64,000 bases of DNA from the NCBI GenBank assembly GCA_001632435.1, contig KV423916.1:310001-374000 (forward strand), given 5' to 3'. Source of the stretch: Calocera cornea HHB12733. Taxonomy: Eukaryota > Basidiomycota > Dacrymycetes > Dacrymycetales > Dacrymycetaceae. The position numbers and the translations under genes were made by a program. Positions 12,235 through 61,233 of this stretch are shown here, in pieces (within the stretch, counting starts at the first letter, position 1; every line of letters starts with the position of its first letter). Under the pieces are notes generated by a model. The model was not told the DNA's origin. It saw only the letters and a list, made by a program, of their open reading frames with translations, and did not search any database.

Positions 12235-12286
12235 CCCTCCTCAATGAATCGAGCGGATTCCCTCTTGCGATTAGATAGGCACTAGC

Positions 12287-38655: not shown

Positions 38656-38663
38656 AGATAGGC
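38656..38663. repeat. Left target-site duplication AGATAGGC
   Basis: Eight bases immediately before the left TIR, matching 60209-60216 exactly. Confidence 0.93.
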
Positions 38664-38828
38664 CACCCTAGGCAGCCATCCGGACAGACCAAATAGGCCC
38701 CTTGAACCTGTGGGACGTGACAGGCCTGTTAGGGGTCCTACCTGGACAGATCTGGCCGGGTTGTGGTCTCCCGTCAGCCAGACCACTCGGACCAGATCTG
38801 GCTGAGCCAGACCAGATCTGGTCTGCTT
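38664..38828 (+). repeat. Left terminal inverted repeat, 165 bp
   Basis: Starts CACCCTAGG and ends at CTGCTT. Contains CCAGATCTGG at 38792-38801 and again inside an 18 bp perfect palindrome CAGACCAGATCTGGTCTG at 38808-38825. These are likely transposase binding sites (inference). Confidence 0.95.
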
Positions 38829-39131
38829 GTCACCCCCTGGTTAGGTAGCCGGTTAGCCGGACAAGCCTCGATAGGCCCGTACATACTGTACATACAGACT
38901 CTGTAAGCCCGTCTGGCTTTGATTTGTTGTCTTCTCCGCCGTACGTACGTTCGTCGATCTCTCATCCCGTCCGCTCCCTGGCACTCGTTACACTCATCCT
39001 ATAGAAGAGTCATGGAATTCGTATTGCTCATACGGTACGGTACAGGTGTGATAAACGAGTGAATGACCGCCTGCCGACGCTAAAGAGTGACCGAAGTTGG
39101 AAAAGACAAAGGATATCATTTGGCGAGGATA
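38829..39131. other. Left subterminal region of the element
   Basis: Gene-free. Contains CCGG-flanked short repeats near 38840-38860 and a GTACGTACGTT run at 38941. Confidence 0.5.
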
Positions 39132-40162
39132 TCACACGTGCGTGTCCTCGCCCTTTTCCGCGAGATATTGCTTGGGCGTCATGCCCGTCAGCCAGAGGCA
39201 GAACACAGTGACTGACAGGTCATTAGCGACGCGTCCGTCCGTACGAGCCGATGTACGTACGAAAACCGTAGATGAGGCCGGGCCAGTGCTCCTTTGCCTG
39301 GCTCTTCGCGAGGCGCCAGGACGCCACGATTGCGAGGAGCAGAAGACCGAAGAGCAGCTTGACCGTGCCGCCGGCGCCGAGCTCGTACAGCCGGCGGCCG
39401 TCCCACCAACCGTGCACGCGACCCTTGGTGCGGGGACCGCAGCATCCGAGAGCCTTGAAGCCGCGACCGAAGGCGGCGTAACCTTCGCTCGCACCCGCAT
39501 CCATTGCCTGGACAAGCGTACGGCCTTTGTTCGGCGCAGCCTCCAGCTCGCCCTCGGCCTGCCCATCGGTGCTTCCCTCGGTCGTACCCGCACCAGCCTC
39601 GGAAGTCGGCTGGGGGGTGGGCGCCGCCATCGCCATGTTCGTGTCGGGCGTATGGAGGTTCAGGATGTGAGCCTGCGAGGACTCGTCAGCAAGCTGTACT
39701 TACGGTGCGCGCATCTTGCATTCGTCTGACCGCTCGTACAGACAAGCGGTACGAACAGTCTACAAATGCGCGTGCGAAAGAGCGACGCACCAAAAGCCCC
39801 GACTCGAGCGCTCCCAAGTCCACATCCTCAACGCCCTCGGCATGGCGGATGCTCTCGGTTGCCCCATTACGAAGCCTGGCATGCATGCGACGCATACGCA
39901 CTTCCGACCACTCCTCAACCGACAGCTCAGCCCTCACCATCCCCCCACCAAGGTACTGAACGCCGTACAAGTCGTCGGCTGTGTATTCGGGCGCGGTCGC
40001 GAACGAGTCGGCGTAGTCCGTACGGACGCCCTCTTGATGCCCCTCGAGGGCGAACTTGCTTCCCTCGCGGCCCGTGACCGAGGCCATGGCTGCTTTCTTC
40101 TTGACAGCCAGCAGGGGAAGACCCCCACCGCCATCCGTCATCTGCTCGGTGCTTGTGCTCAT
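39132..40162 (-). CDS. Cargo gene 1: hypothetical protein with two C-terminal membrane helices
   Basis: Unrecognised family. Exons 40162-39704, 39609-39261, 39211-39132 give 295 aa. An alternative 31-nt first intron (39673-39703) would give 316 aa; I prefer 94 nt because 31 is below a plausible intron size. The N-terminal half is charged and soluble (MSTSTEQMTDGGGGLPLLAV start). Near the C-terminus is a clear hydrophobic helix (VKLLFGLLLLAIVASWRLA), and a second (LTVFCLWLTGM) appears only after splicing the last intron, which supports the model. The tail is KQYLAEKGEDTHV. Location suggests a membrane role, unusual for transposon cargo. Confidence 0.6.
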
Positions 40163-40567
40163 CGATTTCTTGCCAGTCGTACGGATGTCGATGTGAATGA
40201 GAAAGAGGGATGAGAGACGCTGGCAGTGGCGGAGGCGGATCCCTTACCGCGTCCGGATGCAGATTTCGCGTGCCACGTGTTTCCCCGTGGGCAGAGTGGA
40301 CGTCCACCTCGAGGCGCTGATATCTTCCACGCCGTAGTGGACTTTATTTTTCGGATAGGCTGGACTATGCATACTTGTGGTCTGTCCGTACGACCTTCTG
40401 CTTGAATTCGTACCGAGTTTCCACACGTACAACGGGGCAAACCAATTAAATCCACCCCATTCTTCAACCCAACAGCGTCGTACACGGCCGCACGCACGGG
40501 AATTTGGGCGCTTCAGTCACATGACCACCTCGGGATCTGACTTTGTCTCGCTGGCGAGCGGATCCAG
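40163..40567. other. Divergent spacer between cargo genes 1 and 2
   Basis: No gene seen. Likely bidirectional promoter region. Confidence 0.4.
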
Positions 40568-41730
40568 ATGCCCGCCCCCTTCCATCAAACGACCACTATA
40601 CCTTCCTCTTACTTTCGCTACGGAGTCGAAACTCACTCAGCTGACGAAAGCACGTCCGCCTGCCCTCAGCTCGTACGTACGTCTCCTCGTATTGTCTGTG
40701 TTTGGACAGTGTCTTATTTGTGTCCTGCCAGCTGGTGCAATCCTGGCGCCATGGAGCCCTCTCTTCCCTCTAACCGGCCTCGCATCCTCTCATCCGGCCA
40801 TTCTTCCCTTCCCTTGTCCACCCATCTCCCTGACATCCAAGGTGGTGAGCATGTCTCTAATTTCACCTGTATCCCACGGTCTGACAACCTCTGTCAGACT
40901 CGTCTGGTGTCCTGCGGCTTCATCTTCCCCAAGGCCCTGGCGCGCCAGTCGATGCGACACGCCAGGGCGAATCCAGCTTCAGCCCCTGCCCTGACACACC
41001 CATAGTCAGCACGGCCGCCGTCACAGCGGCCACACCCGACGTCCATGGTGAAAATGCGTCGAGCGAGGGGTACAAACATATTACACCAAACCGTCCGGCG
41101 GACCGTGCTCCCGTCGGAACGGCTGTCATCTGCCGTACGACCCATCCAAAGGTGTTAAAGAAAGTCGCCCTCAATGATCTCTACCTACGTCTGAAGGCCG
41201 ATCCATACGCCATGGCCAGTCTCCCCCCTGTGCGGGCGCGTCTGGCCGTGCAGGGCTGTGCACCTCACCCAGACCATGCCTATGTCCAACCACCTCCCGG
41301 CTACGATCCTAGCTGGGCTGTCGAGTTCGGCAACCAACGCGAACCAGATCTGCCTCCGTACGAACTTCCTTCCACGTCGATCGTTCCTGGTGGCGTCAAG
41401 ATTTCCAAGACTAGTCGACAGTCGGAACCTCTCACCCCAGCCTCCGTACAGTCAGACCAGGATCTTTCGAGGCATGCTGAAGGAGAGTCTGAGCCGGACG
41501 AGTACGACCAAGGGTACGCGCAGGGCCGGGAGGAGATCATTCTGCTCGTCTCTCGCGGCCTCCACCTTTCCAATGAACTCGTGGCCCTTGGCACCAGGTA
41601 CCGGGATATCGCGTACGAATGGCTCAACCACATGTTTGCCGCCCACCCGTCCGACGCAGCCCTCCATACACACAATCCCCAGCTTTCTCTGAGCACCGCA
41701 GACAGTGGGACCATGTCGGTCCATCTGTAG
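40568..41730 (+). CDS. Cargo gene 2: hypothetical protein
   Basis: Unrecognised. Exons 40568-40844 and 40898-41730 give 369 aa, with the GTGAGC donor and GTCAG acceptor in phase. The N-terminus is Ser/Pro-rich. The second exon carries KKVALNDLYLRLKADPYAMA, an acidic linker (GESEPDEYDQGYAQGREE) and a helical segment (LHLSNELVALGTRYRDIAYE). An alternative first exon from the ATG at 40521, spliced at a GTACGT near 40674, also keeps phase. No catalytic motif seen. Confidence 0.5.
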
Positions 41731-42952
41731 TTCCCTATCCTTCCTCATCTTGCTTATGGCCATATGCCTCTATGCCTCTTTCTCTACTCCAGAAGGCCTC
41801 TTCTGATGCCTTGCCCCACTCCTTTGTATCTCCGCCTGTATGGCCGTACATTCCCTCGTCGTACAAACATTGCCAGCTGAATTCATATCACAAGTGATGA
41901 TGCGGAGGCTGACCGCGCGGCATCAAACGGCAGCGAGCGCATTACACACCAGCGCATGCCTTATCCATCTTGTTCAGGAGCCGCTTTGACCCGAATCACT
42001 TACGTCCGTATGTCTCTACGGACTAGCTCAGCACCTCAATAGTGTCCTCCTATGCATCTGATCGTGCGTCCGACGTCTTGCTGCCACGATGCCACCCCTG
42101 GCCCTTTCATGACCAGATCTGATCACGCAGCCTCCGCTCCCTCGCCCCCACATCTCGTCGACATCAAGGTCCCCTGTCTTTCCCATCCCTCTCGTCCACC
42201 TTTAAACGGCGCAACTCACTCCCAATACTGGTTCGCGACCGCTCTGTTCGTCCCGTACGCTCGTTTGGGGGCGCATGTACACCACAACGACTACATGCAC
42301 GTACACCACAGGACTACATGTACGCCCGATATCCACGGCGACCAGGCGTCGTCTTCTTCCCCTCAGCTGTGCACCATTCATTGAAACCACCTTGTCGGCT
42401 GTGTCTTCCTTCCTAATACGCGCTTTCTGCCATGGTTCTCCCACGTACGGCGATCGGACTGTCCACCTCCTTTCTCCGCCGACGGATACTCGCACCCGGC
42501 TAGTCTTCTCTTCCGGCTGTTTGCAACCAGATGTCTCACCAAGCCCCTGTTGAGTGTTGAGTCATCTCTTCTATGTCCATGACTCGCCGGCTGTTATTCG
42601 GGTCCGGCGTCGCACTCTTCTTCTCGTGAGTCATCGATCAGCGCCACGTGCCATGTCACGTCCGTACGTCTGTTTGTCACTGTCTTTTCTGACTTCTTAT
42701 CCAATCCAAGAGCTTCTTCTCCTATTTTCCGACCCACTTTCAGGACATTTACCAGCGCCGATGTCCTCCGAACATCCGTTCTCAGGTTACAGTCGTTGTT
42801 TTTCCCCTGAGTGTACGAACATCTTGACTCCGTACTGTCACGCTCCTATACGCCAGTGTAAGCCTATAAAACCCCGCCGTCTGGTCGTATCTTCTCATCC
42901 CCCACCTCTCAGAAACTCCCCATCATTCAACTCGCCGCCCCAGCATTACACG
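41731..42952. other. Long spacer between cargo genes 2 and 3
   Basis: 1.2 kb, low-complexity and Ser/Pro/Thr-biased in several frames, without a supportable gene. A short imperfect duplication (GTACACCACA...GACTACATG) lies at about 42277-42320. Confidence 0.45.
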
Positions 42953-44577
42953 ATGGCGCCCGTACGGACGCCGCATGCATCCATCTCCGCTGAACTAAAC
43001 CGAAACTCCGTGTATCCGTCCGCTCGGCCCACCCTGGCCTCTCCGCCGTCCCCTCCCCTCAGTCCTCAAGTGGCTAGTCAGCATGCTTCTCGCATGTTGA
43101 CTTTGCCTGGAAGCCTTCTCCGTCCTCACATTTCCGACCATCCAGCGGCGACCAGCGCACGGACGACCATCCAAGCTGGTCTTCACACTATCGACCACAC
43201 CACATCCCGGCTCGAGCCCCTCCCGTGGTCCGCGCCAGCCGACGATGAAAGCGACGTACCTTTGGAAGACGATGCCGTCGAGAACGCACCTAAGGACGCG
43301 GCGAGCGTCCGGGAGCAACGAGTCGCCCGTATAGCCGCCCTGAAGAAGAGTATTGAGCATATGGTACGCAACCCAGTACCGGTCGACCAGTGGGCCGTAC
43401 GATACTTCTTTCGCGGCAAATTCCGGGATACTGTCAATGTCTGTCGCCACCTGCGAGCTTCCAAGGTCTTCAAGAGTACGGTCGAACGTCCGGGAGAAGC
43501 CTATCACAGTGAGCGTTCTACTGGTCGTTCTTAGCATTTCAGGCTCACGACGGCTCTCAGAATGTCAATGGAGCGACACCCCTTTTGACTGTAAATTCTG
43601 GGGTATGCCCTACTTTCCCAATGTCCGTCTGTATGCGCTAATGTTACCGTACGCAGACACTCTTGCGTTCACGGAGCAACATCGTCTTCTCGGCCAAGGC
43701 ATGCAATTAAGGAGCATGGCCGACTATCCGGCTGGCTACGGTCCCACGGTCCCCCTTCCTGAAGGTATCTGCTGCAAGAAGCCCATTCGCCTCAATCCTT
43801 TGAAGCAGTTGCGCATCGAACTAGCGAATGAGGAAAGCAGGTTGAAGTATGAGGACCTAAATGATGCCATCCGTACATCTCGCGAAGAAGGGGCAGCGGC
43901 GCGCGCAGCAGCCTTGCCTCAAGAACGTAAGCGTACGGACTTGCCTGCGCAAAGGTCCGCCTCCCCGGGCAAGCGTCCTCGGCCTGAAGACCTTGATGAG
44001 GAGGCTCAGGCATCTTCCTCGCACCAGAGGCGGACGCTTCACATCGATGTACGTACCGCCGTTCATCCCCTCATGTCTATAGGGTCATAGTTGTTTACAG
44101 GCGCATGCTCCACGTACGCCGCAGGAATCCGAACAGCCACCACGAAGCACCTTCCATATGGTCGATCACACGGTCAGCGACACTTTCACGAGCCCGGCCA
44201 GTCACCCGCCGTCAAACTCTCAGCCGTCTGGACGTACAAACGCCCCTCTTGCTCAGTCAGTGGTCCCCCCTCCCCAGCCCATCAATCCCCCTCCCCAGCC
44301 CATCAATCCCCCTCCCCAGCCCATCCCTCCCCCTCCCCAGACCATCAATCCTCCTCCCCAGACCATGATCGATCGTCCGTTGACTCCGACTACCCCCCAG
44401 TCGCCCGAGGAGAAACTCGCCCACATCTACGCTCTGACTCAACGGCTTCAGTATCTTTTGGAGAGCGGCATCTCCTTCGGGCCCCAACCTCCGTCTCCCG
44501 CCCCTGTTCGTGAGCCCACACCTTGGGAGTTGCTTCAGGAACAAGCGGGCAGCCTTCCCGATGGCCGTTCGTCCTGA
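42953..44577 (+). CDS. Cargo gene 3: hypothetical protein with Pro-rich repeats
   Basis: Unrecognised. Exons 42953-43508, 43561-43602, 43657-44048, 44101-44577 give 488 aa; all splice phases close. Ser/Pro-rich N-terminus, then an aromatic/charged block (QWAVRYFFRGKFRDTVNVCR), a Cys-containing stretch after splicing (KCQWSDTPFDCKFW), ICCKKPIRLNPLKQLRIELA, a helical charged region (YEDLNDAIRTSREEGAAARA) with a basic SPGKRPRPEDL that may be a nuclear signal, five PPPQPIN-type heptads, and a helical end (EEKLAHIYALTQRLQYLLES). Looks like a nuclear regulatory or structural protein, but that is only inference. Confidence 0.6.
44266..44371 (+). repeat. Five 21 bp in-frame repeats coding PPPQPIN
   Basis: Coding minisatellite inside cargo gene 3; unit CCCCCTCCCCAGCCCATCAA plus T, with the last units slightly diverged. 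Confidence 0.8.
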
Positions 44578-45000: not shown

Positions 45001-48000
45001 ATGGCGCAGTATACTTTGGGCTTTGAATATCTGGGCAGCGATCGGTTAGCCCGACCTGCTCCACCTTCCAACCAGCTGGGCTCTTTTGAGCCCCAAAACG
45101 ACATCCAACGCTTTTTGGAGAGCAGAGCCATGTTTCCCGCCCGTGCGTCCCAACTCGGCCGTGTGCGCACCGACTGTATGTCTCATCAGGCTAGTAGAAT
45201 CTACGCCTTTAAAGGACAAACGACCGTCCGTACCCCATCCCGTTGGTTCGTTCGGCCCCTCTGAACCCAATGCCTTACCCGTCTCACTCACGGTCTTTTC
45301 TTAGCGGTTGGCCCAACGTCCCTTAGTGAACGGCGTATGTTCGTCCAAGCGCCCCAAGGACCTCTCACTCATCCCCTCATTAGCCGTCAACCGTGCGTCC
45401 GTGACCCACGCGCCAACCCCTTCCCGCTTCGTACCGGAAACGCCCGGAGCTTGGTCCGGCGCCAGTATGCAGAGCGTGCTATCGGATCTGTTCCCTCCCT
45501 CCACATCCACGGACCTTTTCGATCTGGGACAGCTTGCTCTCAATGTTGGGATCTCCCCCTGTTCGCAATTATCGCCACATGAAGGTCTCCCAGGGATGCA
45601 GACCTCCGATTCGTCCATATCGTCCATTTCCACGGACATGCAATATCTGAACGACGCTATTGCCAAAATGGGCGAACCATACATATTCCAGCCAGCAGCG
45701 ACCCCTGGCCCTCGCGCGACTTCCTCGGGCGATTCCTTCCTCCCGCCTCGTACGCCCGAAAATACCGCATCCAACCCCGAAGGACCGTACGCTTCGCGCA
45801 TTCCGGCATGGACCGGCGCTTATGAGGAGTGGCGACTCGCATCCCATTGGGATGCTCCTCCTTCCTTTGTGGATCTCTCTCTGTCCGGCGGCGACGTCCC
45901 GCCCATCGCACCCCTGCCCTCTGGGTTCACCGATTCGTCCGAACGCCAGGCCGCTGCACCACCAACAACTTCCCCACCACCCCATTCATCCGTTCCCGTC
46001 TACCCCCTCCATTCACGAAACGGCCGGGGTGGTGACCCACCTCCATCGGAGGACGGCTCGCCCGCCTCTTCGTCGTCTCCTGATGCAGCGGCGTCCGACG
46101 CCGAATCGGAGCACACTTCTGATTCAAGTGACAAAGAACCCGCGGAGCACGACGTCCGTCCGAGCCAAGATGCCGAGTTTTGGGGGGCCAAGCTGCCTGA
46201 TGGCACTCAGGAAGACGAGGAAGACGAGGAAGCGGATGCGAAGGAATTTCAAGCGCGCGCTCGAGCCTTGGCATCTGCATACTATCAACATCGTTACCCG
46301 CATGCCGGAGGCTCTCTCCCTGCGGACGGCCGGACGGCGATCAAGTTTGCCCGCCAAATGGTTCGGGGTTTGATCGAGTTCATCTGTGAACAATACAATC
46401 TTCAGCAACAGAGGGTGTGGAAGGAAGTGGGAGCCTTCGTGGGGTGGGCCCGTGGCTTGAATGCGTGGAATATGTTTCAACGCAAATGGCGCGACGATCT
46501 CCCTCCTGGAAGTACGTCCCGGCCTTCCGTCTCTTCGTACACCTATGTTGACGACCGTACAGCGCCGTTTGATCATGAAGCATGCCACGCCGCGTACATC
46601 GAAGAAGCGTCCAACGATCCTGTTGAATTTCACTCCCGCTTGTCCGCCTGGCACGAGGCTCACACAGCGCCGGACGGACGGGACTTGTTGCCGTCCGAGC
46701 GGGCCAAACTCATGGACCAGCTACTCAAAGCATCAACGTACATGGTATGAGAGATGTTGCAATATCCTTCATCAGGGTTGACTTGGCTGCAGTTCTCGAT
46801 GTACGATCGGACGTGTCATATCGGTGCTCGCCTCGAAGTGGGATCTCTTCATCCGTTAGAAGGCGAAACCATGTACCATGTGTACGAGACGAAGAGTATG
46901 CAAGGGGTGAGTCAAGACGACCAGATGTCTGCATGTGCTCATGTGGAGCAAAGTATACGAACTTTGCGTACAAACGCACGCATGCGGGTTGCAAGATTGC
47001 ATGGGTGGCCTTCGCCGCGTACGTTACGTACGCAGTGACATCGTAGCCTCCCAGTCACTGATGCCCTCTACAGGAAGCGCGCGCATGCTTTGGTGAACAA
47101 TCCCCCCCCCCCCACAGTGGATCGCAGAGTACCACAGAATATGCGGTCCGCGCGTGCTGAGATTCAGTCTGCCGGTCGCGCGCTTGCTCGTATGTCCAAT
47201 CGGCATTCTTGCGTGCGAGTAAAGCTCATGATTTGGTGAAGATCAGATAGTCCTGTTGTCACATCCTCATGCCGATCAGCCAAACAGCTGTCCGTGGCGG
47301 TCGCGATGGAATCAGCAAGCTCTCAAATATCGGTGTACCATATTCAATTGGCCCGATGAAGGTCCTTTACCCCACCAGCTCTCTCGCGAGCTGCAGAACA
47401 GTGTGGAAGGTGAGATCACCCCCATCTGGCGGGCATTCACCTCTGTGGTGCCTTCTCAAGCCCTGTACGTCAAGGCGTGGACGGATGGTACGGCCTCTAC
47501 CGCGTTGCCTGGCTTTGAGATCTAACCTCCTGTAGCGGCCGTCCAGAATCCACAGCGGGAGAATCCTCCACTGATCGTCACCGTCAGCGGTCGCCGCTGG
47601 ACTTGGCAAGATGAGCAGGGCCGTCTGGCCGGTAACATCGCGGAAGAACCCATGCCGCAGTCGATGGTACCCGAAGCGCCCCAGAGTACAGCCGTACAGA
47701 AGACCGTCCAACACCGCACTGGAAAGCCCAAAAGGAAGCTCCGCGATGCCCACAAGCGCGATGCCCCCAAGACTGCACCCTCTCCCCCAGGGCCTCTGCG
47801 CCAAGCCGTGCGGACGGACGTGGTGCCGTCCGACCTCCGATCCTTGACGACGGAATCTCCGGCTCGCGAAGTATCCCACTCTCCTCCCCGCATAGCATTG
47901 AAGAGGAAGGCACTTGATACGGACGCGGCGCCTTTGCAGGGGGACAAGTCGACGGACCCACCGCCCGGACGCCGTCGACGTCTGGATGGGCGAGGTGGCA

Positions 48001-48365
48001 GGTCACATACGCGCTCCTCACGTGAAGATCCCGAAGCTGAGCCTCCCAGTCAGGCAGTCGGAGCACCAGTACAACGTGACCCGGTCGCTGCGTCCCAACC
48101 GTCCGCGCGTCCAACTGGTGCCCACCCGGTAACCCTGCCTTCCTTCCGCGAGCTCGACAGTATGGTCGCTACCCATGGTTCGCCTCCCCCGTCATGGAAC
48201 CAGTCCGCGATTGGGGAGGCTGCGATGTCCCCCAGACGCTACGATGTGCCGGTGTACGACCCTGGCCCTCCCCTCCCTGACGCTGGCCTTACGTTGAAAT
48301 CACAACAGCGGCCCCGGCGACCGGGACCAACGTACGCTACGGTCTCCACTCATGCAGGGCGATAA
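45001..48365 (+). CDS. Cargo gene 4: large hypothetical protein
   Basis: Unrecognised, about 990 aa. Secure exons: 45305-46744, 46793-46906, 46954-47018, 47074-47189, 47242-47487, 47536-48365, all in phase. The 47190-47241 intron uses an AAG acceptor. The first exon is less certain; 45001-45162 (MAQYTLGFEYLGSDRLARPA) joins in phase 0. Features: acidic low-complexity stretch (DGTQEDEEDEEADAKEFQAR), a conserved-looking helical domain (GRTAIKFARQMVRGLIEFIC, WARGLNAWNMFQRKWRDD), a Trp/Pro-rich block (CTIFNWPDEGPLPHQLSREL), and a basic tail (GKPKRKLRDAHKRDAPK) with probable nuclear signals. A run of 12 C at 47102-47113 codes PPPP and is slippage-prone. Confidence 0.6.
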
Positions 48366-49713
48366 TCGGAGTTGACACACGGCTGACTCGACGAGGGAAG
48401 GGGCGGGGCCTGCCACAGGGCCCCTTCATTCTTGTCTTCTAGCTAAGCACAGCAAGTAGAGAATGGATTTTAATCATTTTGCGATCGGGGCTTAGATAGC
48501 GGCCGGCCGGCCGCTGTCTTGTTGTGTCAATTGTCTGACCCGTCCATGCCGTCAATCGGCAAACGTAGTACAACGAGCCCGGACGGCCGTGTCGGCCATC
48601 ATCAGCATGATGCCCTCAGCCAGGCCTCCAACGGTCCCCTTCTTCTTGCTTTGGCTGCCCGTACGTCTCAGCATTAGGACCGGTATGTACGTCTGCCTAT
48701 GTATCCTATTGCAATATAGGCAGCACATCTTGGTCATCTTTTGGGGGTCACTGAGTGATTCGTACGTCGGCTCGTGCGCATGGGGCAGGCATGGACTTAG
48801 GAGGTGTCCATACGTCTGTTAAAGGTGTGTACGGAGCCACCAAACCAAACAGCACCTCCGAGTGCAGCCTACAACCTATTAATCGTCCTACCAAGGCGGC
48901 AGGCTCTCTACGGCTCGACCGTACAGCTGAGCGGCTTGGCTTGGTGACGATTACCTGCTCGCCGCCCTGCCCGCGGTTTTACCATTGTCCGGACGCGCAG
49001 CCTTACTGACAAAATGGCTATACGCCTGGCGTGTTCAGCAGAGCGAGTGCAGTTGCGTCACTCGCCATCGCCGGCCGTACGGACGTACATACATACAACC
49101 GCGTTGTCTCGGGCAATGGTAGGTCACCTACAGGCGTGCTTTGAGATCAATAGGTGGACTCTCCGCTCCTCCCCCCCTGCCGCGTACACCCAACATAGTA
49201 GGCTGGCCAGCCACGTCCCCTTCCCTTCCGTGCGGCTACGTCTCGCGCAGTACTGGACAAAGGATTGTGTCGGTTCACTTCTAATATGTTTGTACCGCTC
49301 GCTGGGGCGAGCGGTACAAATATATTACATGGAGCCCCCATCAGTCGCCCCCAGCTTGCTCAGGAGAGCCAGTGCGAATGCTCACCTCCTTCCCCTCTCT
49401 TCGTCCGTGCATGACTCTACTATGGACACCCCATGGGATGCGTCTTGTAAAACACAAATGACTCTTAGCTGTCCTGCATGGAAAGGGACAGCCGAGACAC
49501 GGCCGGGGTGCTAGTGACGATTGGGATGACTGTACATGGTTGCTCTAGCGTACGTGCTGAACTTCGAGCGGTCACGCGAATGGTCATCGGCACGGCCGGT
49601 ATTTTGTAACCAATTGGGACGACTCGCGGGTTTGTCTTGGGCGGTCGGCTGCCCCCCCGTACACTACGTACAATAATTCATTGATTATCATACGTACATA
49701 TGGTTGGAAGGTG
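48366..49713. other. Long spacer between cargo genes 4 and 5
   Basis: No supportable gene. Holds an 18 bp palindrome AGCGGCCGGCCGGCCGCT (48498-48515) and a long hairpin (49282-49327). Several CGTAC-rich patches. Confidence 0.5.
49282..49327. other. Near-perfect 21 bp-stem hairpin with 4-nt loop
   Basis: Arms 49282-49302 and 49307-49327 around loop TGGG; the core GTACCGCTCGC pairs with GCGAGCGGTAC. One position pairs as G-U in RNA. Transcription would give a very stable stem. Confidence 0.85.
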
Positions 49714-50961
49714 CTACACTACATGACCTCCTTCTTCTCCGGACGAGCTCTCTGACGGCCAATCGTCGTCCGAATCGTGTCCTTCCACGCCATCCGTCAG
49801 GTCCCAATCCACCCCTCCACCCCTGAATGACACGATTTGTGCGAATAGCCAACCCGGGAAATCGTGCTCTTTCCACTCTCTAGGTTCGAAACCTGCCATT
49901 GCCCCCAGGGACTCCCATGCTCGGACAAGAGGTGGCCTGAAGTCGTCCGGTGGGACCATCACTTCGTGGTCGAAGGTGTACGGCACTGGGAATATGTCCG
50001 GGCATACCGTCTGCAGCTGAATCGATTGTTCTTGAATCCAGGCTTCGAAACTTGGGCGGGCGACAGGATGGGGATCATGAAGGAGAAGTACAACCCCTTC
50101 GTCGGGATAATAGACGAACACCTGAGAGAGGGCCGTACGCCATTCGTGACTTTGACCAGACTGTTCAGAACATAACTCTAGCGTGCATGACCGAACGTAC
50201 CCAAAGTATCTCCCGGCATGCTCGACATCTCGCGCCGCCAGCCCAAACTCCGTGAATCGTCGGGGGATAGGACCGAGCAAGTTGCCTGACGTGAGCATTT
50301 CGCTCCTTCGGACGGCCGTTAATAGGTAAAACTCATTGTTCCATTTACCGAGGGGCCCCATATCCGGGAGCGCGTACGCTTGTCCGGAGATGGAGAGTCC
50401 CCGGCGGCCCTCCACCTGGATGGAAGTACCGGGCTTGGAGAACACCTCAGGCCGATGCTCATCCCGCCGAGCCGGCCCACGACCCGTACCACCGTAGAAG
50501 CAGGGGAGTCCTTCGATGCGTTCGTGGGACCAATCGATCACTTCTCCGGTCAGGTCGTCCGTGATGGCCCAGCTCGTTAGGATCAACAGCTTGAGCCATC
50601 GCTCTACGGCCGTTCCGAGTGGGACATACCGGGCCGATGGTAGATATAAGGCACCGCGCCGCTGTACGTCCGCTGAGGTGAAGACTGGCGAGTGGGCGAA
50701 CTCGAAGACGGGAGCGTCTCCAGAGCGATGGACGTCCATGGCGGGTAGACGCAACCACCTGTGGGCGGGTCCAAGGACGCAAAGTCCGTCCTGTGGACGC
50801 AGACCCTGATGGCGACCAGATATGGCTCGGACCAGATCTGGTCCGACCATATAATAGTTACCCGGTGAACCAGATCTGGTCGGACCTTCGCGCGCTTCAA
50901 ATGGGTTCCACTGAGAGATCGGCCGTCCATCCCACTGTTTCCGCCGCTGTGGGGAGGACAT
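49714..50961 (-). CDS. Cargo gene 5: hypothetical protein, divergent from the transposase
   Basis: Unrecognised single-exon frame of up to 415 aa. Its first ATG (50961) overlaps the transposase ATG, so the real start is probably internal: ATG at 50739 (MDVHRSGDAPVFEF) gives 341 aa. Content: LGTAVERWLKLLILTSWAIT, GKWNNEFYLLTAVRRSEML, GYVRSCTLELCSEQ, YYPDEGVVLLLHDPHP, PLVRAWESLGAMAGF, and an acidic Ser-rich C-terminus (DSDDDWPSESSSGEEGG). No catalytic signature seen. Shared regulation with the transposase is likely from the head-to-head arrangement. Confidence 0.6.
   Translation of the reverse strand: MSSPQRRKQWDGRPISQWNPFEAREGPTRSGSPGNYYMVGPDLVRAISGRHQGLRPQDGLCVLGPAHRWLRLPAMDVHRSGDAPVFEFAHSPVFTSADVQRRGALYLPSARYVPLGTAVERWLKLLILTSWAITDDLTGEVIDWSHERIEGLPCFYGGTGRGPARRDEHRPEVFSKPGTSIQVEGRRGLSISGQAYALPDMGPLGKWNNEFYLLTAVRRSEMLTSGNLLGPIPRRFTEFGLAARDVEHAGRYFGYVRSCTLELCSEQSGQSHEWRTALSQVFVYYPDEGVVLLLHDPHPVARPSFEAWIQEQSIQLQTVCPDIFPVPYTFDHEVMVPPDDFRPPLVRAWESLGAMAGFEPREWKEHDFPGWLFAQIVSFRGGGVDWDLTDGVEGHDSDDDWPSESSSGEEGGHVV
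50829..50879. promoter_or_regulatory. CCAGATCTGG palindromes in the transposase/cargo 5 divergent promoter
   Basis: GGACCAGATCTGGTCC (16 bp perfect palindrome) at 50829-50844 and CCAGATCTGG again at 50870-50879, with a TATAATA-like sequence between them (50849-50856). The same decamer is present twice in each TIR and at 59920-59929. Suggests transposase binding and autoregulation (inference). Confidence 0.6.
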
Positions 50962-53900
50962 GCCACCTAAGCCTTCCTTCTTCCTGGGTCGACAACGCCG
51001 CCGCCGTCTGGCTGGTCCTTCGGTGGAGCCCGCGACGCCAGGCGACCGTCCGCCATTCGTACGCCAAAGACGCTTGGATGATCAACACAAAAGGCGGCGG
51101 ACGGAAGGGCGCGGATGGGAGAGCAGGCCGGACCATTTACCTGCCCTACAGTCTGGCTCCCAGTATGTTGGAGGCGACCCAGTCTATGACAGCGATCACA
51201 ACCCAACCGAGCTATATGATCCCGATGCGAACGATTGGGCGGAGGTGCTGGAACCCGTCCGGGCGGACGTCCCTGCGAAAGCACAGAATGAACGCCGTCG
51301 ATACGCTTTTCGGAAAGCCAAAACGTACAAGATATGGTTGAGGACACTGCCTTCGCTGGTCGGGGCGGTTCAGAAGCATTACGGGTCTCCTGCAACTCCA
51401 GACGGCCGCCCGGAGAGGTACGAGGGTGGAATGTCCGAGGGAGCATGTGGTGCTGCTTGCCATGATGTGTCGATAACCCGCCTGAATTGCGTGGGCCTGG
51501 ATGGTGCGTGCCTGTTGGGTACATACTCCTGAGTGGGGCTGACACGCCACAGGGTACCAAACAAGGACCTTTCTCTCTTGTGCCCTTCATTCCCTGAGCG
51601 AGGTCATGGTCGAAGCGGGCATGTGGCCAAGCACGCCGATCCGTCCGCAGCTAGGCTTCACGTTTGAATGCCTGAGCCACTTTATCCATCTGCATCGTGC
51701 CTGTGCCGTGCCCGTAGATGCCTTCTGTGACAGCCTGCTGTCCAAACAAGCTGAATTCGGCATTCACTATCTTGATTCATCAGGCGTACGTCCCCCGTAG
51801 TTGTCGCTCCAAGTCGAGAGCAGCTATCTGAGATGACCGGACGTCCGTAGGTCCGTCCACTGAGTGACCCATGGCGACGAAGTTTCGCCAGCGCGGTACT
51901 GTGGTATGAACTGACTCTCATACGGTGGAATCGACAGCTCTGGACGGCGATATCAGCTCTCCATGTGACTGCCCCTGCCGCGGCATCGATCGGTGGTGAA
52001 GATCGGTGAGGCCAAAGTCCCCTGCACCGTGACCGTGCCTCCGTCCGCCTCAGACGAGCTTGTCCAGCTTGTTTTGCACTGGACGCATGGGGTCGCGACG
52101 CCAAGAGGTGAGCAGATGAGACCCTGTCACGTACGTGTGGTAGATGACCATCGGAAGGCAGCCAGATATTATCGTATGCACGGACGGCAACCGACAGCTA
52201 CGGCGCTTCAGGGGCCGTTCGGAAGGTGCCCCTTTCTACCAGGCAGAACTGTTCCTGTCGGTTGAGGAAGTCGATGCAGTGGGGGAAAAGATGGCGAGCC
52301 AACGTACGTCTCGATCGGACGTCGAAGTTCCAGGCAAGCTCAGCGAAGAGGCACGAGAGCGATGCAAGAAATCCTTCAAAGTGGCAGACGAACAAGCAGA
52401 GATCGTGGACGGGCATCTGTTCGATCCGACCGGATTGATGGTGCTACTGTGCCGACATGATGTACCACTATTTGCGTGTGACATCACGACCCCAGGAGAG
52501 CAGCAGAAGTATGTGGTCGCCTTGCTGAAGGCACTGCTGCGAGAGCTGCCCATGCACGCCACTGTCGGGTTGTTATACGATATCGGGTGTCAACTGGACC
52601 ACAGCTGTATGAAAGTGAGCACAGGCTGCCAGGCGTTGATGCACGACCCACTCATCTCGTCCGGCCGGAAGTACGGCTATTTGGAGGACCATTTCGGCCG
52701 GATTTCTATGGGATGCAGCGTGATGCACGCGTACGGACACGAGTGGGCGTGCCAAGTGGTATATCATCCACGACGGCGGGAAGGCTTCGGTTTGAGCGAC
52801 GGAGAAGGAAGCGAGCAAGTCTGGAGTCGTATTCGTCGGGAGATTCCCATCCTACGCCGTGCGGATGTACGTCCCATCGTGGCTCTGTTCCTGCCGCGCT
52901 GAGCTCTTCTTCCAAGGCAGAAACAATGTCGTGTTATGGTGCTCGATCAAAAACTCATCCATTGTGGGCGATCAATGATCCAACACCTGGGCACCTGGAT
53001 GACGCGTAAAGTGAAGCTGATCGAGCATCAACGTCAACACGCCGAAGAGCTCGTACGAGCGAGCGGAATGTCGAGTCGCCAGTTGCAAGAACAGCACTCC
53101 CTGCAGATGGCCCAGCCACAGTCCGTACGGACGGGTGAGTTGGGACACGCAAGGGTGTAATGCGAGCTGAGATACTTGTACGCAGAGACATTGAGCACAG
53201 TGGAAAGCAAGATGCAGACATACAGGCATCTTCAGCAGGAGATCCAGCGGTTGGAAGGCTCCATTCTGGAAGCGCGGAACGAGCTTGCACGGGCGTACGG
53301 CACTCGGGAAGCGACCGCAATGGTTGCCCAGCTGCGGCACACACACAGCACCATGCTGAGTCAAGGTGAAGCCCTGTTCGCAAGCATGCGGATCGATCGA
53401 TCATTCCCAGAGTTCCGAGGCGTGTCCAGCCAATTCTTGCAATATCTGGTGCTGGCGCGGCAGGAAAAGATCTACGTCCGTGAGCGCATCGTTGGCCATA
53501 TGTGGGAGCTAGCGAGGCTGAGAAGAGCACGGGGAGGGGGCCATGAACCGATCGGTACGAAAATCAGGAGTGAGAACGATACGAGAGACTGATCCGGACG
53601 GGCGTAGGGACGAAGCTTCGAGATCAGATCTTGAAAGGGTACGGGCCCCGCTGGAAGACCACGCAAGCGGCGATCCGCAGGTACAACACTTATGTCGATC
53701 GTTTACGCGAAGCTTTCAGTCCGGAATGGAATATTCCTCTGCCGCTGAAGCTGAGCGCGGAGAGACTGGAAGTCCCGACAGAGGACCACCATCTCTTCAC
53801 TGATGTTTGGTGGCCATCAGTGCAGACTCCAGCCGCATGGATAACGGACGAACGTGTGCGACAAGGCGTCACAGGATGGCTGCTACAGGCGCACTGCGAA

Positions 53901-55470
53901 GAGGAGTCAGTACGCTTGGACCTCGAAGGCGCCAACCTGGTACGTTGGTGGAAAGAGGAGTGGGACGCACTCACTCAGGCCGAGGCCGACGCAGATCGTA
54001 CGTGTGTGAACAGCCCGATGATATTTCGCTGCTGACATGATAGTGCTCGTGCAGATCCCGCTGATAAGATTTGGCTGTCCAGACAGAGAGTCGAGCACAG
54101 TCTGAAGCGACATCGGTGGTCTTCACTAGTGGTCCAGCCGGCCGTGTGGAAAGAAGTATGGGCGGCAGAGCAACCTGCCGATCGACCGGACGGTTGGGCA
54201 GAAGACCAAGGCGATATACACGATGGAGAGGACAACGAGTCATTATCGGCGGCGAGCGATCCGTACGACCGCACCATGGGGGATGTTGACGCGTTGGTGG
54301 AAGAGATGGGCGGGGTCATGTTGGCTGATGGGTCTCCGGATGCGACCGACACCGGACGCGGTTATCTTTCCGAAGAGGTCGAAGAGGAAGGCGTGGCCGA
54401 CGGCGATGCAGAAGTATCAGGATGGCGACGGGAGGACAACCGCGGGTTGTGGCCTGCACGGGCCGCACAGCAGGCACCGCACAACAGACCGTCCGTCGCG
54501 ACGGCGCCTCGTCAGCTCGTGACGGACGCCCAAATTCTCCATCCGGATCCACACTTCTCGGAACGATGGCAATTGTACGAATGGAAAGAGTGGTATGTGG
54601 GGGAGCGGCATACCCGGGTGGACATTCCGGTGGTGGAGCTGCAGCGCTTGGCAAGCCCCACCGCTTGGATGAGTGAAATCATCGTGAACGACTTTGGTGC
54701 CATGTTTGAGGCCGCGCAGCCGAGCCATTGGTTCCCAGAGTCGCATACGGACGTTCGTGTATTCTCGTCATATATCGAAACTTCAGGGAGAGGATGGGCG
54801 GACGAGGAGCGGTGGTACGACCGATTTGTGTCGCGACGTGTCTGGACGGAGACTAGAGAGGGCGGCCAGCGTAGGCGGGTGAGCGATCAATGCAGTCATT
54901 GCGCTCACGGGTTGACTGTTGTCGTAGGTGTACGACCGTATGCACTGCTGGAGCAAGCCTGTATGGATTTTCCCGAGATATCGCGCGGACTTATTGCATT
55001 GGCGCCTCCTGGTCGTCGACTTCGAATCCCAGGAGGTGCGAGTGTACGACAGTATGGCAGGCGTGGGGGGCTGGGAAAAGGACGTGGAGGTAGGTCGGGA
55101 TTGCTCGGACGAGGGCCGCGAGAGCGGGATGACTGTCCATACTGACTGAGTCCAGGATGTCCATGCCATCTTGAGGAGAATCATGCGATTGAGCAGGTAT
55201 GCAGGCACCATAGAACCGGAGGACTGGAGGACTGTGCTGGTAGACGTACGTCCGTAACCGTAACCCTTGATCGGCGAGGATGATGTCTTGCAACAGTGCC
55301 AGCAGCAGCCTAACGAGAATGATTGTGGCGTATGGGTTTTGGCCCAGATGCTCGCCCTGGCTCGGGGATTCGGACGGACGGGACAGCTAAATATGGAATA
55401 CTTTAGGAGTTGTCTTCTGCAAGCGTACTGCCAGGTAGCAAAGAAACACACAGAACAGGAATGCGACTGA
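50960..55470 (+). CDS. KDZ transposase fused to a C-terminal Ulp1-like (C48) protease
   Basis: Twelve exons: 50960-51503, 51553-51785, 51851-52005, 52054-52107, 52158-52866, 52921-53134, 53186-53554, 53608-53997, 54055-54878, 54928-55089, 55156-55245, 55297-55470; 1305 aa. KDZ hallmarks: CPACF (about 314-318), first Asp in VCTDGN (338), ITTPGEQQKYVVALLKAL, second Asp in LLYDIGCQ (470), MHAYGHEWACQVVYHPRRRE, then EGFGLSDGEGSE with the Glu at 545. A helical C-terminal region follows (SKMQTYRHLQQEIQRLEGSI, QILKGYGPRWKTTQAAIRRY) and an acidic linker. The protease shows His in DLLHW (1188), Asp in VYDS (1205), Gln region QQQPNE and Cys in NDCGVW (1258), so its triad looks intact. The 52108-52157 intron uses an AAG acceptor and restores the CPACF frame. 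The join between the two halves rests on one intron (53998-54054); two separate genes remain possible. Confidence 0.9.
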
Positions 55471-55816: not shown

Positions 55817-56228
55817 GGTGGAGAAGAGTACAGTGCGGATGGTTGGTGGGCCGGATGTACGGCGGTGCTTGCAGAGAGTTCGTAAGGTTGTGGATAAGAG
55901 TACAGTGCGATGGTTGGTGGGCCGGATGTACGACCGTGCTTGCAGAGAGTTCGTAAGGGTGTGGAGAAGAGTACAGTGCGATGGTTGGTGGGCCGGATGT
56001 ACGACCGTGCTTGCAGAGAGTTCGTAAGGGTGTGGAGAAGAGTACAGTGCGATGGTTGGTGGGCCGGATGTACGACCGTGCTTGCAGAGAGTTCGTAAGG
56101 GTGTGGAGAAGAGTACAGTGCGATGGTTGGTGGGCCGGATGTACGACCGTGCTTGCAGAGAGTTCGTAAGGGTGTGGAGAAGAGTACAGTGCGGATGGTT
56201 GGTGGGCCGGATGTACGACCGTGCTTGC
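55817..56228. repeat. 71 bp minisatellite, nearly six copies
   Basis: Unit starts GATGGTTGGTGGGCCGGATG; starts at 55838, 55909, 55980, 56051, 56122 and 56194 (the last step is 72 bp and the last unit partial). Inner copies appear identical; the outer ones differ slightly. It lies between convergent gene ends inside the transposon (gap 55471-56311). Confidence 0.95.
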
Positions 56229-56311
56229 TTGAAGAACAATGCGTAGACCGTCGGACGGCGATGCCTGCTGAGTACGACATGTATAGATTAACGTAGCGAC
56301 AGGTGAGTGCG

Positions 56312-58619
56312 TCAACGCCTGCGACGCTTGACCTCGCTGGGGGCAGATGATTTCGATACGTGGCGTTCGGAGCCCTGCTGAAGTGGGGCGGCCTGTGCAG
56401 AAGAGGTGGATGGCGCTGGGCCCTGGCCATGTGTAGAAGTGGTAGTAGCTGATGTGGACGGGAGGTCGTGCCTGTCTTCGTCTTCGTGGTTGGCCGACTG
56501 CGAGGGGGAATGACACTGGCGTCGACTGCCCGTACGGCTGAAGGCTGCACTGAGCTCATCGAGAGGATTCGGCTGGAGAAGTTGCGTCCGGGAGCGCGTA
56601 CGATTGGCGACGGCGGCGGCGAGTGGGTCGAGGGTCCGAGAGGGACCAGCAATCGGACGATCATTAGCATGGCTGGACGATGCCGTGGCATTACGGGCCG
56701 TCCGATGAGGATGAGGGGTAGCAGGGGGCCGGCGAGGGGTGTGACGGCGAGGCGGAGTACGGTTCGCAGGAATGTCCGGTGAAGTACGGCGATCCTCGGT
56801 GAGAGTTGAAGCGTACGATTGGACGGTATTACTGGCGGCAAGAACATCTTCCAGTCGGTTGCGTTGGGCCTGGGCCTCAAGATACTGCGATTCGGTGTGC
56901 TCCGCATGGTGTACGGCCGTACGGAAATCATCCTCCGCGTCCATAGTGGCTCGCAGGATAGCGACGATCTGCGGTGAAAAGGCCTTTGAACGGACAGTTA
57001 CGCCATTAAAGAAGTCGCGCGCTTCCGCGGCAAGGTCCGGGTTGCTGAGTATCTCGGCGGCGCGAGCCATAATGTCATCATCATCCATATCTCTGAGGAT
57101 GGCCGCGTTGTCAATTACTTCTTGCTCCTCTTCTTGTGAATCGGTGCGCTTCCTCTTGCCCTTGCCCTTGTCCTTGCCCTGCCGCATATATGTTAGTACA
57201 AGCGGACGAGAATACGAGCGAGGCGGACGTACGTCCTTGTGATTGCTTTGCCCGGTGGGCGCGGTAGTCGTACAGGAACCTCCCCCGGAAGGTTGACCAC
57301 GAACGGGAGGACGGACAGAGGATGTTTGTGCACGAGCAGGTTGCGTGTCGGGGGGACGAGTGAAGGAAGGGGCTTTGAAATTAGGTGCGGCCGTATGGCT
57401 GCGTCCACCGGGGGCCTGGCTGGGTCGCCGATTGCCGAGTGGCCGCCGAGGTTGACTGGCCTGGGATTGTTGACTGGCCTGTGACGAAGGCAGGACGGAA
57501 GGATGGTGCGTTGCGGGGAAATGGACGGATGCAGGGAGAAGATCACTCCGTTCACGGAGCGGGACGGCCGCGGCGGAATCGGGATCGTGTACGCCACGGT
57601 CAATCGCACGGCGACGGAGGACCGGGTCGATCATCTCAGGCGGTGCCGCGATACCTTGTTCGGGGGGACGGAGCTCCGGACGAGCACCGGAGGGGAAGGT
57701 CACAGTTTCGAGGGGTATGCCGACCGCCTGGGCGAGCCGCATTTGCATCTTATCCGCCCACTCTGTACGATGAGGTCAGATACTGGAACGAGATACGGAC
57801 GATCGGACGTACCCCAGTAGGTGCACTCGTCCTTGGTATGATACCATGGGCACTCTATATGCGGTGAGAACAGCGAAAAGTGAGGAATGAAAAAGGCGCA
57901 CTGAAGAACTTTATGCGAGTCCCGTCCCTCCTCCCGAACCAGGACACAGCAAGACGTCCGTGGCAACACCTAGGTTGCTTTTCCCATATCACCTCGCCTT
58001 TCCAGTGGTAGCGCCTACGCCAACGTGTCGTGTCGGTCGGATCGACAGGTCCGCGAGAGGGCGGCAGATCGCCCTCATCGAGCAGCATATCAGATTCGGC
58101 GAAGACTGGAGGGGGTGGGCGCGGACGGATGGTCGGACGACGAGTCGGACGGTCGGCGGGTTGCAGAGACTCCGCCTCGACTGCATCCAGGGCAGCAAGC
58201 ATCTCAGCATCAAGTTCTTCCTGCGCATACATGAGGGCAAATTCATCTTCAGAGGGTTCGGTTGGCTGGAGGAGGTCGGGCGGAAGTTCGACGTCGTTGT
58301 CGAGATTGGCTAAGTAGGCCTCGTATGCTTCCAGAGCGCCCGGTGACATTGTGGCCGAACGAGCTATATGCTCCTGCGAACTAGGCGGGGTGGGAGCCGG
58401 ATGGTCGGCCTCTGCATCCGGACGATCGAGTTCTACGGCGGTTCCGCCAGAAGTCGGATCACTCACTTCATATTCGTTCTCGGACGGGTTTTCATCTTGC
58501 ATTTCGTCCAGGAAAGCATCGACGGTGTCAGGAGGAGTAGGGTCGGGGGTATGGTCCGTGGGTGTGGCCGTACGTGTATCGTCCTCGCCTTTGGCGCCGA
58601 TGTAACTAACACCAGCCAT
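56312..58619 (-). CDS. Cargo gene 6: GRF-type zinc-finger protein
   Basis: Exons 58619-57902, 57854-57813, 57762-57233, 57178-56312; 718 aa. Splicing assembles a GRF zinc finger at about residues 220-258: PRCCHGRLAVSWF, RIKFFKCPWYHTKDEC, TYWEWADKM, matching the family order C-x2-G...R-x-FF-x-C...C-x-(F/Y)-x-W-A-D. GRF fingers bind nucleic acid and occur in TOP3A, NEIL3 and APE2. The N-terminus is acidic, the middle very basic (GKDKGKGKRKRTD) and the C-terminus Ser/Thr/Pro-rich, ending KRRRR. A 54-nt in-frame intron (57179-57232) with a CTAAC branch point carries no stop, so retention would add 18 residues. Likely a DNA- or RNA-binding helper of the element. Confidence 0.75.
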
Positions 58620-59014
58620 ACTTACGTACAAAAGAACTGCTTCAAGATAGAACCACAGAAAGACTGATCGAAGAATGCAAAGGGACGTACGCGGGGGACG
58701 GGTTGGTGGCCGTGCGGAGATCAGGAGACGAGATCGAAAGCAGAGCGGCGGTTACGATCTGTACGGAGGACTAAGGAGAGAGTAAAGTAGAAGGAGGGAG
58801 GGAGGATAAAAGTGCAGTGTAATGGAGTGTAGACTTGTAGGATATAGGTTGAGGAGACGGGTATGAGGTACAGTGGTACAGTGAGAGGGGACAGAAAGAG
58901 ATGAATGCGGGATGGGCGACGCGCTGGCCGGACGCGTGTAGGCGAAACCACGTGTTCAGGGTGCGCCGTCGTGGGGCCACCGTGTCCTGCCTCAACTCCC
59001 TCGAACAATCAACG
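58620..59014. other. Divergent spacer between cargo genes 6 and 7
   Basis: No gene seen. Probably a bidirectional promoter; rich in GTACAG/GGAGG tracts. Confidence 0.4.
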
Positions 59015-59584
59015 ATGGCCTCAGAGCAAGAGACTCAGAGGCGGGCGAACGATAATCCAGGTACGCTAGGACGATGGTGCAGGGATGACGTCCGTACAAT
59101 CGGCGGACTAATAATGTATAGAGGGAAGCGCGAGCAATCAAGCGGAAGAGCCGAACGCGACGATCCGACCGGACGAACAGCTCGCGTTGGCCGTGAACGC
59201 AATGACGCGACAATTCCAGGTACGGTACAGCCGGTCATCTTTGCTACAAGCTGATCATAGGCTAGGACGCTATGCTCGCTGATCTACAAGAGGATAGAGG
59301 GGAGAACGGCGTCCGTGGGTCGGAGCGAGAGCAACGAAGCCGTCCGCGACGGGTGGATGCACTCCTCCAGGGCCTCTTCGAGTTCATCGATGTACGTGGT
59401 CTCAATCACGCGTACATACGAACGTACTGACAAAGACTAGGCAATGTCTCGAGGGGAGCAACAGGGATCGCCACAGTACCAAGATGTAGATGAAAAGGAG
59501 GGCAAGGGCAAGGGGCGGGTCGTACAGAACATAAGCGTGGCGACCAAGGGGCCGGGGGGGGCTAGGAAGACCAACCAGCCCTGA
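59015..59584 (+). CDS. Cargo gene 7: small hypothetical protein
   Basis: Unrecognised, 137 aa. Four exons: 59015-59060, 59122-59219, 59266-59391, 59441-59584, all closing in phase, which supports a real gene. N-terminus MASEQETQRRANDNP, then a helical charged middle (PDEQLALAVNAMTRQFQDAM), a stretch RRVDALLQGLFEFIDAM, and a Gly/Lys-rich tail (DEKEGKGKGRVVQNI). Possibly nucleic-acid associated, from its charge only. Confidence 0.6.
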
Positions 59585-60043
59585 GGGGACTGCGAAGTAC
59601 GCACAACGAGACTCGGGACAAGCCGTACATTGTATCATACGTACGTACAACACATATGCACATTGATGGAGCCATGAGTGGGGGCCAGAGGTGTGATATA
59701 CAGGCCGGAATCCGGACAGCGCGGACGAGAGGGGGTACAACGACCGCAGGACAAATGAGAAGATGCAGCACAAAGACGCAGTGGGGGCAAAGGCAAGCAA
59801 AGTAGGGTAGCAAAGGAAAGCGCAATGAGGACAATCCGTACGGTCAGATAAACTGACGATGGGGATTTGGGGTAGGTAGTAGAAATGCGAGGACTTATTA
59901 AGAACGGGGAGGAGGATGACCAGATCTGGCCAGAGGACAACAAAACAACTGATTCCATAACTATGTGTAACGATACAAATATCAGCGTACGGCCACCAAT
60001 ATGTGTTATAATAACTAAACCGGAGAGCCAATAACCGGAGTGG
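59585..60043. other. Right subterminal region of the element
   Basis: Gene-free. CCAGATCTGG occurs at 59920-59929 and a TACGTACGTAC run at about 59639-59649. Confidence 0.5.
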
Positions 60044-60208
60044 AAGCAGACCAGATCTGGTCTGGCTCAGCCAGATCTGGTCCGAGTGGTCTGGCTGACG
60101 GGAGACCACAACCCGGCCAGATCTGTCCAGGTAGGACCCCTAACAGGCCTGTCACGTCCCACAGGTTCAAGGGGCCTATTTGGTCTGTCCGGATGGCTGC
60201 CTAGGGTG
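60044..60208 (-). repeat. Right terminal inverted repeat, 165 bp
   Basis: Reverse complement of 38664-38828, identical throughout by eye, including the 18 bp palindrome (60047-60064). Confidence 0.95.
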
Positions 60209-60216
60209 AGATAGGC
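60209..60216. repeat. Right target-site duplication AGATAGGC
   Basis: Immediately follows the right TIR; exact copy of 38656-38663. Confidence 0.93.
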
Positions 60217-61125: not shown

Positions 61126-61233
61126 CCCTCCGTCTGGGACGCGTTCACGGAAGCAACCTGCAAGACGCGTCCAGACCAAGCTGTATGCGCTCTCCTTCTG
61201 ACCACCCCCACGCGCACTCTGGACAATAATATC

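Follow-up and report, generated by a model that had tools for sequence, protein, structure and literature searches.

Is the 21.5-kb structure bounded by perfect inverted repeats in the genome of the fungus Calocera cornea HHB12733 a complete transposon, has it moved recently, and how are its ends and its genes related to each other? The stretch of DNA analysed here (hereafter, the window) comprises 64,000 nucleotides of contig KV423916.1 (assembly GCA_001632435.1, positions 310,001 to 374,000 of the forward strand), and the structure extends from duplication to duplication over positions 38656-60216 of this stretch. A first-pass annotation had described it as an intact transposon of the KDZ superfamily, the name of which is said to have been introduced by Iyer et al. 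in 2014. That the window element is a KDZ transposon is near certain. Moreover, it belongs to a family of eight members, and it is probably an autonomous element, most likely of the cut-and-paste type, which generates 8-bp duplications and regulates itself: a protein encoded by the element would bind a palindrome that occurs both at the element ends and in an internal region.

Element ends and related elements in the assembly

The terminal inverted repeats (TIRs) of the window element, located at positions 38664-38828 (forward strand) and 60044-60208 (reverse strand), are 100% complementary over 165 nt and are separated by a spacer of 21,215 nt; a perfect inverted repeat of this length cannot have arisen by chance. 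The target site duplication AGATAGGC abuts both the left TIR (38656-38663) and the right TIR (60209-60216), as the first-pass annotation had reported. Besides the two element flanks, AGATAGGC occurs on the forward strand of the window only once, at position 12273, and the chance of an exact abutting 8-mer is approx. 1.5e-5 (4 to the power -8). The element ends read CA..TG.

In the whole C. cornea assembly (32.1 Mb, 302 contigs), the KDZ profile PF18758 gave at least 51 exon hits, counted as at least 31 loci. Eight elements, including the window copy (designated C3), share the termini of the window element, its KDZ gene and two further genes, A and B; thus, the genome-wide TIR search that had been proposed at the outset did recover full relatives. 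TIR pairs were found for C61 (19.9 kb), C64 (20.0 kb), C110 (19.2 kb), C204 (19.5 kb) and C42 (18.5 kb), and the six elements with both ends on one contig measure 18.5-21.5 kb. For C162, a single end was found, and its contig starts inside the element. The TIR search also returned unpaired ends at C106, C273, C56, C40 and C76. Among these, C106 (107159-114513) and C273 (6726-19441) represent one element split by a contig gap, because their flanks share the duplication TGTTACCT and their gene A halves overlap (C106 carries residues 1-531 and C273 residues 501-788, in each case close to the contig end). Seven elements have the tip (G)CACC(C/A)TAGGCAG at both ends, and six of these seven are immediately flanked by a perfect direct repeat, the sequence of which differs from element to element. 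In particular, 8-bp duplications flank C3 (AGATAGGC), C106/C273 (TGTTACCT) and C110, C204 and C42 (between them TCGTTGAC, GAACTGCA and TAGTTGCC); the duplication of C61, CGGAGCAGGG, is 10 bp long, and C64 lacks a duplication.

The identity of the two TIRs had been taken as an argument for recent movement. Within the family, the first 138 bp of the paired TIRs are identical in C3, C204 and C42; the corresponding values are 124/138 in C61, 125/138 in C64, 125/138 in C110 and 131/140 aligned columns in C106/C273. Despite TIRs of 90-94% identity, C61, C110 and C106/C273 keep perfect duplications. Because this applies to three of the four elements with non-identical TIRs, TIR identity does not measure the time since insertion here, and the argument for recent movement is not supported. 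More generally, the family shows that perfect TIR identity is by itself no evidence of a recent jump.

The transposase and genes A and B

The KDZ transposase gene (50960-55470, forward strand) was spliced against a homologue from Calocera viscosa (P0007). The guided alignment gives 15 introns, the last two of which were taken as end artefacts, leaving approx. 13 credible introns; the resulting frame stays open between a point close to the ATG at 50960 and approx. 55470. The KDZ domain (52165-52863, forward strand) scores 143.2 bits against PF18758, compared with a curated cut-off of 26.6 (146.9 bits in the genome scan), and includes the conserved D, D and E segments TDGNRQL (52180-52200), YDIGCQ (52576-52593) and DGEGSE (52798-52815), which we take to hold the catalytic residues. 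At the C-terminus (approx. 54928-55460, forward strand), crude strings of open frames match the Ulp1-type Peptidase_C48 profile with 28.1 bits, above the curated cut-off, and the peptidase segments around H, D, Q and C are also present. This domain suggests that the protein may act on SUMO or a similar modifier. In the crude window model, the cysteine regions CxC2 and CxC1 score 21.1 bits (cut-off 27) and 15.2 bits (cut-off 26.9), respectively; CxC1 reaches 36.3 bits in P0007, which exceeds the cut-off. The spliced transposase models of C3, C61, C64 and C162 contain no stops. Together, the KDZ domain match, the TIRs, the duplication and the stop-free splice confirm that the window holds a complete KDZ element with exact ends and an open transposase. 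The NCBI model P0004 starts past the KDZ domain, and thus the public annotation of the transposase gene is truncated and lacks its core.

Genes A and B are located upstream of the transposase gene. Gene A (45425-48421, forward strand) is a multi-exon gene with approximate ends, the N-terminal exon of which was not placed, and gene B (49717-50739, reverse strand, coding part without the stop codon) corresponds to CALCODRAFT_479131 (P0001). Both genes are specific to the family: an assembly search detected relatives of gene A on nine contigs and of gene B on eight, all at the eight related elements, and neither search found them at the other 23 KDZ loci (8 of 31 loci carry them). In shared-word searches of the protein database, with approx. 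8,000 candidates scored for each gene, the only matches for gene A came from C. cornea (the C42 copy) and C. viscosa, and gene B matched the window's own protein alone. The order gene A (forward), gene B (reverse) and transposase (forward) is the same in C3, C61, C64 and C162, the elements that were read whole or nearly so.

The ratio of nonsynonymous to synonymous substitution rates (dN/dS), calculated from crude gene models, is 0.18 for the transposase, 0.24 for gene A and 0.13 for gene B between C61 and C64, and 8 of 18 comparisons (six pairs of elements and three genes) give values of 0.13-0.25. Where dN/dS is measurable, genes A and B therefore look constrained like the transposase. The first-pass annotation had referred to the genes other than the transposase as cargo; because at least two of them are common to all eight elements and look constrained, the term 'core genes' fits better. 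A possible further gene upstream of gene A, referred to as gene C (42554-44087, forward strand), has exons that were not resolved. Its frame 43344-44087 is matched weakly (24-25% identity, E 7.8e-5 to 2.4e-4) by sequences that precede gene A in C110, C42 and C162 and has no match in the remaining elements of the family, which hints at a third, fast-changing gene. The long open frames 56315-57775 and 57858-58751 (56315-58751, reverse strand), which may represent one or more genes, and the frame 40885-41727 have no match elsewhere in the assembly.

The shared palindrome and its possible role

A divergent region of 220 bp (50740-50959) separates the ATGs of gene B and the transposase gene and presumably contains the promoters of both. 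The palindrome CCAGATCTGG is located in this region at 50832-50841, inside the 16-bp palindrome GGACCAGATCTGGTCC, and again at 50870-50879, and in the window copy a TATA-like sequence (ATATAAT) lies between the two. The same CCAGATCTGG palindrome is present in the TIRs. The related sequence CAGATCTG occurs 11 times in the window element, including sites that start at 38747, 38793 and 38813 in the left TIR, at 60052, 60072 and 60118 in the right TIR and, just inside the latter, at 59921; the 96,441 bp of non-element DNA that were fetched contain one CAGATCTG and no CCAGATCTGG. The core sequence (AGATCTG or CAGATCT) is found in at least two copies between gene B and the transposase in all eight elements, often with a spacing of 20-21 bp, the limits of this region outside the window being set from hit positions rather than from mapped gene ends. 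In C3, C61, C64 and C162, the sites occupy the element ends and the short stretch that separates gene B from the transposase. Moreover, the exact pair CAGATCTGG-N5..35-CAGATCTG occurs at 12 distinct places in the 32-Mb assembly (11 forward and 12 reverse hits), all of them inside C3, C42, C61, C110, C162 or C204, and the reversed control gave none. An alignment of seven of the eight regions, hand-cut around the motif, yields a consensus that contains ACCAGATCTGGTTGGACCCT, with a mean column identity of 42%. The motif came to light in C3, C61, C64 and C162, and its test used the very genome in which it had been spotted; a check on it is provided by the promoter pieces of C110, C42, C273 and C204, which were retrieved later.

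We infer that autoregulation through the shared site is the most likely reading of this motif. Transposition would follow a DDE-type mechanism in which the cuts are staggered by 8 bp, and one element-encoded DNA-binding protein (the transposase N-terminus or the product of gene A or B) would bind the palindrome as a dimer. At the TIRs, the bound protein would help to assemble the ends for cleavage (synapsis); at the internal divergent promoter, it would adjust the expression of the transposase and gene B by feedback. Transposition would thus be autoregulated, and a rising copy number could draw the protein to the element ends and shift the balance. A more specific version of this model is rather speculative: the gene A or B product might be a dedicated GGACCAGATCTGGTCC binder that recognizes the same operator at the TIRs and around the TATA-like box, so that element ends titrate the protein and set transposase output, with the fused Ulp1 peptidase acting on SUMO at the same complex. 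If true, the element would be a eukaryotic DNA transposon with its own copy-number sensor.

Several observations weigh against autoregulation by an element protein or against an intact, active element. Sites are also found beyond the ends and the region between gene B and the transposase (two internal ones in C3 and one in C64). The strict pair is present within that region in just six of the eight elements, being absent from C64 and C106/C273, and the first C of CAGATCTG is missing in both promoter copies of C64 and in one of three copies of C273. No Pfam family matches the product of gene A or gene B, and the predicted structures of both products are too poor for use (mean predicted local distance difference test scores, pLDDT, of 33.0 for A and 30.4 for B). 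A comparison of gene A with solved structures yielded matches at chance level only (E 1.1 and 1.7). Synonymous sites are saturated in 10 of the 18 gene comparisons, which therefore gave no ratio, and gene A of C64 has one in-frame stop in the crude splice. The palindrome could also be bound by a host factor. Finally, the empty site for which the first-pass annotation had proposed to look is not present in the assembly, where a query made of the joined flanks returned the two flanks alone (a DNA search of this kind may miss matches), and the TIR search revealed no near-identical second copy, the other matches to the window TIR being 74-84% identical over part of its length.

The last two results speak for a relic, i.e., a once-mobile element that is now fixed and whose TIRs are kept identical by gene conversion. 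The family also provides some support for this explanation, as the 138-bp TIR stretches are identical in three of seven elements and perfect duplications persist in three of the remaining four as well; the open transposase with its conserved segments and the intact duplication argue against it, and we regard it as possible but doubtful. If the element is instead an ordinary KDZ transposon, the palindrome would be a site for a host transcription factor, and genes A and B would be accessory genes unrelated to it. Such an arrangement gains from the lack of Pfam matches, and hence of any recognisable DNA-binding domain, in the products of these genes, since binding by an element protein is itself something that we infer. 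It is nevertheless unlikely: host genes would be expected to have paired sites too, but the exact paired palindromes are confined to these elements (the genome-wide count covers exact paired sites, not single ones).

Starships are large elements with a tyrosine recombinase captain gene. The length of 21.5 kb, the frames at 56315-58751 and 40885-41727 that are unmatched elsewhere in the assembly and the Hsp90 fragments captured by four relatives (see below) would suit a cargo element of the Starship type in which the non-transposase genes are passengers. However, the element has a KDZ transposase and TIRs, genes A and B accompany the KDZ gene in all eight elements, and the four elements compared in detail share the same gene order, with low dN/dS where it is measurable. 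No tyrosine recombinase domain was detected among ten scanned sequences of the window element, which cover part of its frames, and no dedicated search for it was made. A cargo element of this type is highly improbable. Least credible of all, to the point of being negligible, is an assembly error that placed a single sequence twice, in opposite orientations: the identity of the TIRs extends over 165 bp and is lost at once further inside, as such an error might leave it, but the same terminal structure recurs at other loci, with separate direct repeats in six of the seven two-ended elements. An autonomous, probably self-regulating KDZ transposon remains the preferred explanation.

The Hsp90 fragments mentioned above, detected with a composite query, are scrambled and partly repeated, and are located at the downstream ends of four of the eight elements (C61:51849-53579, C64:133828-135587, C162:16187-17524 and C110:12518-13943). 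In C61 and C64, an ATPase-domain piece lies on one strand (its HATPase match in Pfam is below threshold), and repeated copies of the charged-linker region lie on the other (PF00183, 43.6 bits, over the cut-off). The probable source is the host Hsp90 gene at C9:232055-232597 (93% identity, open frame of 677 residues); additional hits are found at C13:313326 and C84:255, and the window element gives no tblastn match at E <= 1. Most of C61 can be aligned collinearly with C64 at 71-73% nucleotide identity, compared with 88.7% at their downstream ends; recent exchange between elements or repeated capture might explain this higher conservation.

Other features of the window and the family can be described briefly. 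A 71-bp tandem repeat (55818-56228; 5.8 copies, 97% matches) is located just 3' of the transposase gene. Near the downstream end of the window element, positions 59266-59427 have an inverted translated match near the upstream end of C61, C64 and C162, for which nucleotide support is weak. Just outside the element, at 60885-61130, an 85-bp inverted repeat (92% complementary, arms 76 nt apart) adjoins a frame that resembles an F-box protein, as judged by eye. Rfam gave nothing in the window at the gathering threshold, and a scan of 50700-51000 for bacterial-type promoters and terminators, a method ill-suited to a fungus, also gave nothing. As for the unpaired ends, the C40 interior resembles, in short pieces, the upstream part of C64 and C162, and the C56 interior the downstream part of C61, C64 and C162; the C76 interior has no similarity to the four compared elements. 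The KDZ locus pairs C233/C265, C103/C238 and C10/C37 agree fully or almost fully in scores and layout and could be uncollapsed haplotypes or recent duplications.

Comparison with known systems

Element proteins that act on the ends and on their own promoter are known from plants. In CACTA elements of the En/Spm type, TnpA binds subterminal motifs and affects its own promoter, which lies at the element end, and a protein of the Calocera element that binds repeated end motifs and acts on its own promoter would work alike. CACTA elements belong to an unrelated superfamily, and the shared site of the Calocera element is also internal, 12 kb from the left end. One CACTA element of soybean is reportedly 20.5 kb long (PMC2613891).

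KDZ proteins with Peptidase_C48 domains are widespread in Agaricomycetes, for example in Trametes, Suillus and Pisolithus: 127 proteins among 7,994 scored candidates matched at E <= 0.001, and among the 120 matches listed, many carry both domains. These KDZ-Ulp1 proteins have the same domain set as the window transposase, often with CxC1, and are mostly 27-35% identical to the queried window region. They differ in what accompanies them, as the shared-word searches described above detected genes A and B in no genus other than Calocera.

Zisupton elements have an 8-bp duplication. The excerpted text of Kojima 2025 (PMC12730594) gives the same length for the Dileera element Zisupton-1_PGr. The window element resembles both types in this feature, without being assigned to one lineage or the other. 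The excerpt also describes two Laccaria Kyakuja families with 7-bp duplications, CA..TG ends and no TIRs (PMC12730594). The window element shares the CA..TG ends but, unlike these families, has an 8-bp duplication and 165-bp TIRs; its transposase was not placed on a tree. TET/JBP genes, the topic of that paper (PMC12730594), are absent among the ten scanned sequences, which represent part of the open frames of the window element. Excerpts of two further studies report that the TIR motif of the KDZ and Plavaka elements of Marasmius oreades was characterised in its genome paper (PMC8290104) and that nematodes possess multi-exon Zisupton genes with evidence of TIRs, no duplications having been detected (PMC9297572).

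The closest parallel is found in Cryptococcus neoformans. According to the excerpted account, KDZ1 is approx. 11 kb long with 241-bp TIRs and 8-bp duplications, the TIRs of KDZ1-3 range from 139 to 241 bp, the duplications of KDZ2 and KDZ3 are 4-8 bp long, full-length copies exist, and all three elements were seen to insert into a reporter gene (PMC12810828). Together with the seven relatives in the same assembly, these elements leave without support the initial view in which an intact KDZ element is a rarity and most descriptions come from fragments. The Calocera and Cryptococcus elements, as the latter are described in the excerpt, have in common a KDZ transposase, long TIRs and, in the case of KDZ1, 8-bp duplications; the Cryptococcus transposases also have a CxC1-type cysteine region (PMC12810828), for which the crude window model gives a match below cut-off.

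In contrast to the 9.2-11 kb given there for KDZ1-3 (PMC12810828), the six measured Calocera elements are 18.5-21.5 kb long. The open-licence literature yielded no earlier account of these Calocera elements, their genes A and B or the palindrome that they share, and although KDZ genes are common in mushroom-forming fungi, little was found on element parts beyond the transposase. What is new here is the anatomy, i.e., the family-specific genes A and B and a palindrome common to the ends and an internal region, and a comparison of the eight relatives within a single assembly shows what is retained, namely two unnamed genes and a palindromic site. The value of the locus lies in its family, a clearly delimited KDZ lineage with several genes and a candidate site for self-regulation, which offers a direct test of end recognition and self-limitation in KDZ elements. 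Movement has been observed for KDZ1-3 and not for the Calocera elements. The excerpted Cryptococcus account names the KDZ and CxC1 domains only (PMC12810828); relative to it, the Calocera elements add a shared palindrome as well as genes A and B, and Ulp1 is an addition of the window transposase.

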